Shown here: piece after piece, positions 23,227 to 28,441 of the stretch
Layout of the letters: each line of letters opens with the position of its first letter
Position numbering within the stretch: position 1 is the first letter of the stretch
Assembly: GCA_030037525.1 (NCBI GenBank)
Contig: JASHRC010000013.1
Coordinates: forward strand, 1-63,125
Source of the DNA: Candidatus Acidiferrales bacterium
GTDB lineage: Bacteria > Acidobacteriota > Terriglobia > Acidiferrales > UBA7541
Direction: 5' to 3'
DNA: 63,125 bases
Program-made: the position numbers and the translations under genes
Notes under the pieces: model-generated
Seen by the model: the letters and a program-made list of their open reading frames with translations, nothing else
Databases searched by the model: none
What the model was told of the DNA's origin: nothing

Positions 23227-24057
23227 TCACCTGGCCGGTGGCGCGGGTGTGGGGTTTTGATAGCTTTGACGCGGGGCCTGGATGGACAGGAGATCGATTT
23301 CAAAGATCAGCACTGCATTGGGGCCAATGAGCGGGCCCGCACCGCGTTCGCCGTAAGCCAGAGCCGGAGGAAGAAAGATCTGCCATTTCGATCCGACCGG
23401 CATCATCTCAAGCACCTCGGTCCAGCCCCTGATGACCCGGCTGACGGGAAACACCGCGGGCTGGCCACCGCGCTTGCCTGAGCTGTCGAACTCGGTGCCA
23501 TCAATGAGGGTGCCGCGATACTGGCAGACAACCGTGTCGCTCGGTTTCGGTATCGGGCCGTTGCCTTGGGTGAGAACCTTGTATTGAAGACCGTCCGGCA
23601 AGGTAACCACGCCTTGCTTGGCCTTGTTGGCCGCAAGGAACGCCTGGCCTTCCTTCAGATTTTTCTCCCCCAGTTCTTTGCGCTCCGCCTCCAGCTTGGC
23701 CTGAAGCTGCTGGAACTCAGCCATGGCTTGCTCCTGGCTAAGTAGAGGCTTCGCTCCGGAAAGCACGTCCTTGACGGCGCGCGCCACGATCGCGGGATCA
23801 ACGTAGGTCGAGGGCACCTTCATGCCCTCAGCCATGTTCATGCCCAAGGCATAGCTCTGTTTGTCGCGGTCGGTCTGGAGCGTGAATGTCTTTGCGGCGG
23901 TCGAAGTGGCAGGCCTGGGAGTCGTGCTTGCGGCAGGGGGTTTCTGGGACGCCGAAGCGGGCGCTTGCTGCGCGCTCGAAGACGGAGCCTGTTGCGCCCA
24001 AGTGCCTGTTCCATATACAAGAGCCCCAATTAGGAGAGCCAGAATTTGTCTTTGCAT
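23227..24057 (-). CDS. Exported FKBP-type peptidyl-prolyl isomerase
   Basis: 276 residues: signal peptide (QRQILALLIGALVYGTGTWA), a low-complexity Ala/Ser/Pro/Gln/Thr stretch to about residue 55, an FKBP N-terminal helical dimerisation region (about 60-140, SYALGMNMAEGMKVPSTYVD) and a C-terminal FKBP catalytic domain (about 150-262, with VVCQYRGTLIDGTEFDSS, GWTEVLEMMPVGSKWQIFLP and AYGERGAGPLIGPNAVLIFE). It catalyses prolyl cis-trans isomerisation in the periplasm and resembles Mip/FkpA proteins. It is divergent from the kinase-RapZ gene. Confidence 0.95.
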   Translation of the reverse strand: MQRQILALLIGALVYGTGTWAQQAPSSSAQQAPASASQKPPAASTTPRPATSTAAKTFTLQTDRDKQSYALGMNMAEGMKVPSTYVDPAIVARAVKDVLSGAKPLLSQEQAMAEFQQLQAKLEAERKELGEKNLKEGQAFLAANKAKQGVVTLPDGLQYKVLTQGNGPIPKPSDTVVCQYRGTLIDGTEFDSSGKRGGQPAVFPVSRVIRGWTEVLEMMPVGSKWQIFLPPALAYGERGAGPLIGPNAVLIFEIDLLSIQAPRQSYQNPTPAPPAR

Positions 24058-24241: not shown

Positions 24242-25759
24242 TTGTGGGCCGCTCCCGCCGTTTCCAAGCGGCTCCTCCGAGGATGGTTGGACACGTTGTT
24301 TGAGGCTCTAGAGGAACTCTTTGAGCGGCGCTTCCACCTGCCCGTCGAGCAGGTCGATGCGCTCCAGGGCGAGCTGGGCGGCTCGGGGCGCAAAATCGTG
24401 CGGCTGAGGAGTGGGCAGGCCACGGCGATCGGCGTTCTCTACCACGTGCGCGAGGAAAACGTCGCGTTCCTCACCTTTTCCCGGCATTTCCGCAGGCACG
24501 GTCTCCCGGTGCCGGAAATCTATGCCGAGAATCTTGGCCGCGGCGCTTACCTCGAGGAGGATCTCGGCGACACGACCCTTTTCGAATTTCTTTCAGCCAA
24601 TCGGAGGGGCGAAACGATCGGCGCCCAAGCGGCCGAAGCATATCGCCAGGTGGTCGACCTACTGCCTCGCTTCCAGATCGAAGCGGGCCGCGATCTGGAC
24701 TACACCGTTTGCTACCCTCGAGCCGTTTTCGACGCGCAGTCGATCGCCTGGGATCTGAACTACTTTAAGTACTACTTTCTGAAGCTCGCGGGCATCCCGT
24801 TCCACGAGCAATCGCTCGAAGACGACTTCGAACGGCTGACCAGATTCCTGTTGAGTGCCGACCACGACTATTTTCTCTACCGCGATTTTCAATCCCGCAA
24901 CATCCTGTTGCACGAGGGTAAGCCATTTTTCGTCGATTATCAGGGCGGGCGCAAAGGCGCGCTGCAATATGACATTGCCTCTCTGCTCTACGACGCAAAG
25001 GCGGATCTGCCGCCCCGGTTGCGCTACGAGCTGCTCGATCGTTACATCGACCGGCTGGGCGACTTCATCACCATCGAGCGCCCGGTGTTCCTCAACCACT
25101 ACTACGCCTACGTTTACGTCCGCATCATGCAGGCACTGGGCGCCTACGGGTTCCGCGGCTTCTATGAGCGCAAGACTCATTTTCTGCAAAGCGTGCCGTA
25201 CGCCTTGAAAAACGTTTGCTGGCTGCTCGAGAACGTTGAGCTGCCAATTGCGCTGCCAACGCTCGGCGAGGCGTTCCGGAGCATGGTGGCTTCCGAGAGA
25301 TTGCGGAACCTGAGTGTCGCCGCGCCCCCGAAAGCGCCAATCCTTCCTGCCGAACCGAGTGTTCTCACCGTACGAATTTTCAGTTTTTCGTACCGCCGGG
25401 GTATACCGAAAGACGAGACCGGGCACGGCGGTGGATTCGTTTTCGATGCGCGCGCCATACCGAATCCGGGACGCGAGGAGAGATTCAAGGCTCTTACCGG
25501 CACCGATGCGCCCGTCAGAGAGCATCTCGATCAACAGCAAGGCGTGCAGGAGTTTCTGAGGAGCGCCGCGTCTTTGGTAGAAGCCAGCGTGGATACCTAT
25601 CAGCGCCGCGGGTTTACGAGCTTGACCGTGGCGTTTGGCTGCACGGGCGGCCAGCACCGTTCGGTCTATTTCGCCGAGCAACTGGCAAAACGATTGAGAG
25701 GCCGGAAAGGCGTGGAGGTGGTGGTGCGGCATCTCGAGCTGGAGCGCGGAGACCAATGA
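24242..25759 (+). CDS. Aminoglycoside-phosphotransferase-like sugar kinase fused to a RapZ C-terminal domain
   Basis: 505 residues. The N-terminal part (about 20-345) is an APH/ChoK-fold kinase with the catalytic loop YRDFQSRN (213-220, D215) and VDYQGG (D232); it resembles AmgK, which phosphorylates the anomeric hydroxyl of MurNAc/GlcNAc. Residues about 374-502 form a RapZ C-terminal domain, with GHGGGFVFDARAIPNPG and the GCTGGQHRS loop (466-474); in E. coli RapZ this domain binds glucosamine-6-phosphate. The RapZ P-loop half is absent. The stop overlaps the start of the MurU-like gene by four bases, so translation is coupled. The start is TTG; a second in-frame TTG at 24287 follows a GAGGA. 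Kinase substrate specificity is inferred. Confidence 0.9.
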   Translation: MWAAPAVSKRLLRGWLDTLFEALEELFERRFHLPVEQVDALQGELGGSGRKIVRLRSGQATAIGVLYHVREENVAFLTFSRHFRRHGLPVPEIYAENLGRGAYLEEDLGDTTLFEFLSANRRGETIGAQAAEAYRQVVDLLPRFQIEAGRDLDYTVCYPRAVFDAQSIAWDLNYFKYYFLKLAGIPFHEQSLEDDFERLTRFLLSADHDYFLYRDFQSRNILLHEGKPFFVDYQGGRKGALQYDIASLLYDAKADLPPRLRYELLDRYIDRLGDFITIERPVFLNHYYAYVYVRIMQALGAYGFRGFYERKTHFLQSVPYALKNVCWLLENVELPIALPTLGEAFRSMVASERLRNLSVAAPPKAPILPAEPSVLTVRIFSFSYRRGIPKDETGHGGGFVFDARAIPNPGREERFKALTGTDAPVREHLDQQQGVQEFLRSAASLVEASVDTYQRRGFTSLTVAFGCTGGQHRSVYFAEQLAKRLRGRKGVEVVVRHLELERGDQ

Positions 25760-26493
25760 AGGCGATGGTCCTGGCCGCCGGCCTCGGCACTCGCCTGCGG
25801 CCGCTCACCGAGAGCCGTCCCAAGGCGTTGGTGGAACTGGACGGTCGCACGCTGCTGGAAATCGCACTCGCGCGCTTACGCGCATTCGGCATTCGTGAGG
25901 TGATTGTCAACGTCCATCACTTCGCCGACATGCTCGGCGAGTATTTGCAGGCCCAAGACAATTTCGGCATGCGGATTGAACTGTCCCGCGAGGACCTGTT
26001 GCTGGATACCGGTGGCGGACTAAAAAGGGCCGCGTGGTTTTTCCTCGAGGATTCCGGCAGCCCCGAGCCGTTCGTTTTGCACAATGTCGACGTGATCAGC
26101 ACAATCGACCTCGGAAGGATGGTTCGATTTCATACCGCAAATCAGGCTCTCGTCACGCTCGCCGTACAGGAACGCAAGGCCACTCGCTACCTGCTCTTCG
26201 ATCAGCAGGGCCGGCTTTGCGGGCGTCGCTCCGGACACGATCAGAAGCAGGCGGGGTCGGTCGAGGCTCTGGCCTTCTGCGGCATCCACGTGATTTCTCC
26301 GCGCCTGTTTGCGGTGATGACCGAAAAAGGGGTGTTTTCGATCATCGATGCGTACCTGCGACTGGCAGGCCTGGGAGAGCGGATCCTCGCGTTCGGCGCC
26401 GATGAATATTATTGGCGCGATCTCGGCCGGCCTCAGGATCTGCTCGCAGCCGCCCAGGATCTGCGGCAAAAGGTTCACCTCGGACTGCGCTGA
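25756..26493 (+). CDS. MurU-like sugar-1-phosphate nucleotidyltransferase
   Basis: 245 residues of the NTP-transferase fold: MKAMVLAAGLGTRLRPLTES with the PKALVEL lysine, the LLLDTGGGLK motif around residues 76-85, and HNVDVIST with the metal-binding Asp. MurU converts MurNAc-1-phosphate to UDP-MurNAc in the peptidoglycan recycling shortcut that bypasses MurA. The ATG overlaps the stop of the kinase-RapZ gene (ATGA at 25756-25759). The pair matches the known amgK-murU order, which is the main argument for the specific role. A mannose- or glucose-1-phosphate enzyme cannot be excluded. Confidence 0.88.
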   Translation: MKAMVLAAGLGTRLRPLTESRPKALVELDGRTLLEIALARLRAFGIREVIVNVHHFADMLGEYLQAQDNFGMRIELSREDLLLDTGGGLKRAAWFFLEDSGSPEPFVLHNVDVISTIDLGRMVRFHTANQALVTLAVQERKATRYLLFDQQGRLCGRRSGHDQKQAGSVEALAFCGIHVISPRLFAVMTEKGVFSIIDAYLRLAGLGERILAFGADEYYWRDLGRPQDLLAAAQDLRQKVHLGLR

Positions 26494-26499
26494 TCGTCC

Positions 26500-28441
<1,942 letters not shown>

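Follow-up and report, generated by a model that had tools for sequence, protein, structure and literature searches.

In the window, the 63,125-nucleotide stretch of Candidatus Acidiferrales DNA that was analyzed as a whole, a gene for an AmgK-like kinase with the C-terminal domain of RapZ (RapZ-C) fused to it overlaps a gene for a MurU-like nucleotidyltransferase. With moderate confidence, we propose that this pair carries out an AmgK/MurU-like salvage of MurNAc and that its RapZ-C domain is a re-purposed phosphosugar module. The proposal builds on what was observed directly for the pair, namely its architecture and gene order, the residue pattern of its RapZ-C domain, the single clade formed by such domains and the genes found in its company.

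Architecture of the gene pair

The fusion is encoded on the plus strand by a single open frame (positions 24242-25759) of 505 amino acids, counted from the first possible start. Homologous proteins mostly align from about residue 19-21 of this frame, so the true start is probably a TTG codon at 24287 or 24296 rather than position 24242. Residues 70-269 match the Pfam APH family (E 6.7e-12), and the kinase part (24464-25204, plus strand) aligns with positions 83-330 of 360 in the AmgK model NF045698 at 50.8 bits. The catalytic loop YRDFQSRN (24878-24901), which we take to be the Brenner-type motif of APH-fold kinases, and the DYQGGR motif contain the catalytic Asp and Asn and the second metal Asp; both are invariant in 21 of 21 alignment rows, and the pattern YRDFQ[SA]RN is found in 44 of 45 fusions. 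The kinase half therefore has the APH fold and the three residues by which an AmgK-type fold is recognized. Its only NCBIfam matches are two AmgK models, both far below their equivalog cut-offs (50.1 bits against 500 for NF045698, and 43.1 against 550 for NF045759).

At the other end of the protein, residues 376-500 (25364-25741) match the RapZ C-terminal domain PF22740 (E 3.5e-36, 124.5 bits against a cut-off of 27). The RapZ model NF003828 scores only 114.5 bits against a cut-off of 244 and covers just its positions 157-277 of 278, and the GxxGxGK string of the N-terminal P-loop half is present in 0 of 45 fusions as compared to 29 of 31 ordinary RapZ proteins; the fusion has the C-terminal domain of RapZ but is neither a full-length RapZ nor a P-loop protein of that family. 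The fusion as modeled by AlphaFold (mean pLDDT 88.2, pTM 0.69) matches APH-fold kinases, 3csv first, as well as the solved E. coli RapZ-CTD structure 5o5s, to which it is 41% identical (TM 0.91 by target, rmsd 1.7). Pfam, NCBIfam, the GxxGxGK counts and the structure model thus agree with the first-pass annotation, which had described an AmgK-like kinase that carries the C-terminal domain of RapZ but lacks the P-loop half. A chance domain match is ruled out, since the kinase-RapZ-C fusion recurs across phyla and folds as RapZ-CTD, and a frameshift or assembly artefact in the window is ruled out by the single open frame and the homologues.

The second gene of the pair (25756-26493, plus strand) encodes a protein of 245 amino acids whose best NCBIfam matches are MurU models, neither of whose cut-offs it reaches (116.4 bits against 250 for NF045761, and 110.6 against 370 for NF045697). 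Its start overlaps the stop of the fusion gene in the sequence ATGA (25756-25759). Gene order was scored at 131 loci, which became 122 distinct loci, window included, after eight duplicates and a second copy of the window locus were dropped; downstream counts refer to the 118 of these that have 900 nt or more of downstream sequence, and upstream counts to the 105 that have 1,200 nt or more of upstream sequence. A same-strand MurU-like gene lies within 300 nt of the fusion-family gene at 116 of the 118 loci, the placement beside an AmgK-type kinase gene that is expected of MurU, and the overlap is exactly 4 nt at 80 of them. The earlier observation of coupling to a MurU-like gene by a four-base overlap is borne out, and the fusion recurs next to a MurU-like gene across genomes, a check proposed at the outset. 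The two exceptions are L124, where the MurU-like gene is about 1.9 kb away, and L078 (6850-7950, genome G305), where RapZ-C is missing. At L078, a natural deletion, the ATGA overlap is formed by the RapZ-C-less kinase gene and the MurU-like gene; the pair can thus do without the tail, which behaves as an accessory module.

The distance of both enzymes from the NCBIfam equivalog cut-offs counts against MurNAc salvage, as does the comparison of the transferase with known structures, in which mannose-1-phosphate guanylyltransferase scores about equal to MurU. Such remoteness from characterized AmgK and MurU would also suit a pair that acts on another sugar (e.g. GlcNAc, mannose or heptose) for surface polysaccharides. 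We regard this alternative as rather unlikely; AmgK and MurU are still the best named models for the two proteins, and the murQ adjacency and the gene content of family f88, both described below, point to MurNAc-6P.

Around the pair, a gene for an FKBP-type peptidyl-prolyl isomerase (23227-24057) diverges from the fusion gene, and a small DUF4282 protein is encoded on the minus strand (26500-26838), tail to tail with the MurU-like gene. The frame at 26750-28441 presumably encodes a ThiC-like protein, and an Rfam scan of the window returned no family at gathering score, hence no TPP riboswitch.

Residues and fold of the fused RapZ-C domain

Residues were compared, in E. coli RapZ numbering, between the 45 fusions over 440 amino acids in length (of 50 loci) and 31 ordinary RapZ proteins from the same phylum. 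D182, R184, N188, C247, T248, G250, H252, R253 and S254 are kept in both groups, with C247 and R253 present in 45 of 45 fusions and G249 in 44 of 45. In the window, positions 247-254 form the loop CTGGQHRS (25640-25663), a C-X5-R-S string that is predicted to bind an anion. Elsewhere the two groups differ. Position 190, occupied by histidine in 27 and tyrosine in four of the ordinary proteins, is glycine in all 45 fusions, and the aromatic residue at 191 is replaced by arginine, also in all 45 (Gly-Arg at 25469-25474 in the window). Position 238 is phenylalanine in 45 of 45 fusions and lysine or arginine in 31 of 31 ordinary RapZ proteins, whereas position 170 is variable in the fusions (34 His, five Arg, five Lys and one gap). 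A five-residue glycine-loop insertion, ETGHG followed by GG in the window (25415-25429), is found in 45 of 45 fusions and in 0 of 31 ordinary proteins. Four fusions from Bacteroidota share G190, F238 and the glycine loop (4/4), with lysine or arginine at 191. As compared to E. coli RapZ (5o5o, 5o5s, 8b0i and 8b0j), the fused protein therefore retains the C-terminal fold, the CTGGxHRS loop and D182, R184 and N188, but it has no P-loop half, has replaced H190, R238 and in most cases K170, and has gained a loop.

These positions have been studied in E. coli. According to the available portions of PMC9841335, H190, T248, G249, H252 and R253 form a sulfate/malonate pocket proposed for GlcN6P, the variants H190A, G249W, R253A, K170A and C247A/S are inactive, and the variants tested lose the GlmZ pull-down. 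The set required in E. coli for GlmZ binding or processing (K170, H190, C247, G249 and R253) is not kept as a whole in the fusions. As judged by alignment, the fused RapZ-C domain has kept an anion pocket but not the RNA-binding set. The alignment of ligand residues that had been suggested at the outset gives a divided result: the loop C247-T248-G249-G250-H252-R253 stands, while H190 is glycine throughout, and with this histidine lost the ligand may differ from GlcN6P. Phosphosugar binding by the fused domain is plausible.

The fused domain does not stand in for the RapZ of its genome. A second RapZ-C is present in a frame of ordinary RapZ size (~290-410 codons) in 12 of 12 full-fusion genomes tested; G305, with its RapZ-C-less kinase, has the ordinary-sized RapZ alone. 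The genome of the window encodes an ordinary RapZ with the P-loop string GLSGSGKG on contig C151, and this rules out the fusion as a replacement. In a tree of 44 rows and 133 columns, the fused RapZ-C domains form one clade with support of 100/99; long branches were flagged by the program, and L082 was left out because of a missing motif.

Together, the changes at H190, R238 and K170 and the ordinary-sized RapZ retained in all 12 genomes make sRNA binding by the fused domain unlikely, and the RNA partner put forward in the first-pass annotation loses its footing. The same observations bear on the possibility of an E. coli-like role for RapZ-C, in which it would control the kinase by sensing GlcN6P, an RNA partner or both. 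It shares its fold and its anion loop with RapZ-CTD, which binds GlcN6P in E. coli (as stated in the accessible text of PMC7073468 and PMC9841335). Nevertheless, we judge E. coli-like sensing to be unlikely: two of the altered residues, H190 and K170 (the latter still lysine in only five of 45 fusions), are ones whose alanine variants are inactive in E. coli, an ordinary-sized RapZ is kept alongside the fusion, and Tannerella forsythia, from the family of one carrier, is reported in the portions of PMC5790795 available to lack glmS.

The geometry of the anion loop raises a different possibility. A C-X5-R-S loop with its cysteine at the end of a strand and its arginine at the start of a helix is typical of protein tyrosine phosphatases, and in our model the CTGGxHRS string is placed in just this way, a C-X5-R-S/T loop between strand and helix as in Cys-dependent (CX5R) phosphatases. 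RapZ-C could then be a Cys-dependent MurNAc-6-phosphate phosphatase that replaces MupP, so that one polypeptide would convert MurNAc-6P to MurNAc and then to MurNAc-1P. The available portions of PMC9841335 are in keeping with such chemistry, in that E. coli RapZ C247S is inactive, the SH group of C247 is suggested to be possibly catalytic, and a crystal containing GlcN6P revealed what is probably a product of its chemical transformation. The fold, however, argues otherwise. When the RapZ-C domain was modeled alone (pLDDT 92.3), all 17 Foldseek matches at E <= 0.001 were RapZ, the next listed match had an E value of 0.25, and no tyrosine phosphatase or other known CX5R phosphatase was among the 50 listed of 231 matches. 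Moreover, ordinary RapZ proteins conserve the loop just as well. The genomic evidence on this phosphatase is taken up in the next section.

Distribution and genomic company

Within the window's class, 50 of 200 genomes have a match to the full fusion protein (E <= 1e-30), most of them full-length and 67-77% identical, or about 50% identical in family f88. Four of the 50 are irregular: RapZ-C is missing from the kinase of G305, the match in G355 is just a fragment of RapZ-C close to the end of a contig, and the frames of G341 and G436 are broken. In a phylum sample of 294 genomes (profile search, E <= 1e-60), all six matches fall in the same class. The occurrence is patchy: the fusion gene is missing from all five further genomes that were sampled in the genus of the window, which counts against the salvage reading. 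A scan of genome contigs yielded at least 572 relatives. Nearly all of the best 80, which were taken further, are titled Acidobacteria or a subgroup; the others are Methylomirabilota/NC10 (L156, L159), Elusimicrobia (L162, L163) and two records titled only 'bacterium' (L157, L161), these six being 55-59% identical in the best segment. The fusion is also present in four Bacteroidota records of a plasmid collection (40-45% identity over 91-93% of the query).

Two of the Bacteroidota records, from Bacteroides finegoldii and Parabacteroides distasonis, annotate the fusion as RNase adapter RapZ, followed by a nucleotidyltransferase gene; the other two have no annotated feature at the position. The proteins of this name (WP_237923178.1 and WP_005858754.1; L188:5953-7383 and L189:5953-7383) resemble the window fusion in joining a kinase to RapZ-C, in G190, F238 and the glycine loop and in their nucleotidyltransferase neighbor, but are only ~43-45% identical to it. 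The name is likely misleading, because it ignores the kinase half.

A place for the pair in MurNAc recycling, as the first-pass annotation had proposed, is supported by three observations. In seven of seven genomes (six with RapZ-C, plus G305), NF045698 matches no protein other than the fusion-family kinase. A divergent murQ gene adjoins the fusion gene, so that a catabolic MurNAc gene and a putatively anabolic one have a single intergenic region in common, at 18 of 105 distinct loci (L042, L043, L046, L047, L049, L050, L052, L056, L058, L059, L061, L062, L074, L075, L076, L106, L110 and L111). The genome of the window has both murQ (contig C64) and anmK (contig C173). Two of these observations also have a side that counts against salvage: murQ and anmK lie on contigs away from the fusion, and murQ adjacency reflects few independent events, since 15 of the 18 loci come from a single genus (g168, family f1) and the other three from named metagenome-assembled genomes.

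Of the 200 class genomes, 179 have AnmK and 192 have a match of some kind to MurQ, which exceeds the cut-off in 175. AnmK is missing from 11 of the 50 genomes with the fusion, and a strong MurQ (E < 1e-50) is also missing from 11; the absence of AnmK counts against MurNAc salvage and would be in keeping with action on another sugar. A dependence of the fusion on AnmK was not found, as the fusion is relatively commoner in genomes without AnmK (11/21) than in those with it (39/179). For strong MurQ the numbers are the same, with the fusion in 11 of 21 genomes without and 39 of 179 with it. Both comparisons ignore kinship, which is strong (f85, f88), and for AnmK, G456 was counted as lacking it by elimination and the weak matches of G358 and G411 as present. 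In family f88, genus g184, all seven sampled genomes have the fusion and AnmK and no MurQ match at all.

Several of these patterns return to the putative MurNAc-6-phosphate phosphatase. G309 combines the fusion with AnmK and lacks any MurQ match, and its HAD_2 matches are weak, none being better than 3e-5, but a Gph-like HAD protein is present in G335, which belongs to the same genus. None of the seven f88 genomes has a MupP/Gph-type match at E <= 1e-10, as compared to 42 of the 50 carriers, so most carriers have a HAD protein of this kind. The MupP cut-off was reached in none of the 50 carriers but also in none of 14 control genomes, Caulobacter included, 11 of which (again with Caulobacter) have weaker matches; absence of MupP was therefore dropped as proof. 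G305, the only sampled genome with a kinase cleanly lacking RapZ-C, is also the only one of the 50 that lacks both AnmK and strong MurQ, a combination seen in three of all 200 class genomes; this is suggestive, but it is a single case. Several genomes that lack the fusion, G339 and G388 among them, combine AnmK with the absence of a strong MurQ, which counts against the phosphatase. Overall, we consider this phosphatase quite unlikely. A broader version of it is slightly less likely again: RapZ-C would at root be a catalytic-Cys phosphosugar phosphatase that strips the 6-phosphate of MurNAc-6P and passes MurNAc to the fused anomeric kinase, so that a two-gene operon leads from MurNAc-6P to UDP-MurNAc without MupP, competing with MurQ where that is present, and E. 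coli RapZ would be related to it but would have turned its active site to RNA binding.

A candidate MurNAc salvage route

Under the salvage reading that we favor, the kinase would phosphorylate MurNAc (perhaps also GlcNAc) at C1, and the co-translated transferase would make UDP-MurNAc. The RapZ-C tail would be a module for phosphosugar binding, gained by the kinase in a single ancient event, that gave up sRNA binding or never had any; most likely it would respond to an amino-sugar phosphate from the same branch point, be it MurNAc-6P, GlcNAc-6P or GlcN-6P, and tune the kinase accordingly. Substrate, ligand and direction of control are inferred. Like the AmgK-MurU route of Pseudomonas putida, P. 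aeruginosa and Caulobacter, as described in the portions of PMC5371407 and PMC13046382 available, the pair has the gene for an APH-fold kinase of the AmgK type as neighbor of one for a MurU-like uridylyltransferase, usually in a genome that has AnmK. It differs from that route in the RapZ-C domain of the kinase, in the low family scores of both proteins and in that MurQ often coexists with the fusion and can adjoin it.

Support for MurNAc salvage also comes from Tannerella forsythia, for which the accessible text of PMC5790795 and PMC7670621 reports experimental evidence that UDP-MurNAc-pentapeptide is formed from salvaged MurNAc; the organism is said there to lack murA, murB, glmS and glmU, and the route is assigned to AmgK and MurU, whose genes go unnamed in that text. 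P. distasonis, which carries the fusion pair, belongs to the same family, Tannerellaceae.

In the open-access literature, we found nothing on the function of the Bacteroidales fusions, no link between the RapZ fold and cell-wall recycling (subscription papers were mostly outside the scope), no joint mention of RapZ with AmgK or with Acidobacteria and, by a whole-word match that is a weak test, none of MurU with Acidobacteria. If the proposal is correct, Acidobacteriota and gut Bacteroidota would gain a MurNAc salvage kinase that is partly hidden under the name RNase adapter RapZ, and the RapZ sensor fold would be tied directly to cell-wall recycling. The fusion would allow the role of the RapZ C-terminal pocket to be tested cleanly, free of RNA binding, and it bears on how RapZ senses GlcN6P and on why its loop cysteine is essential.
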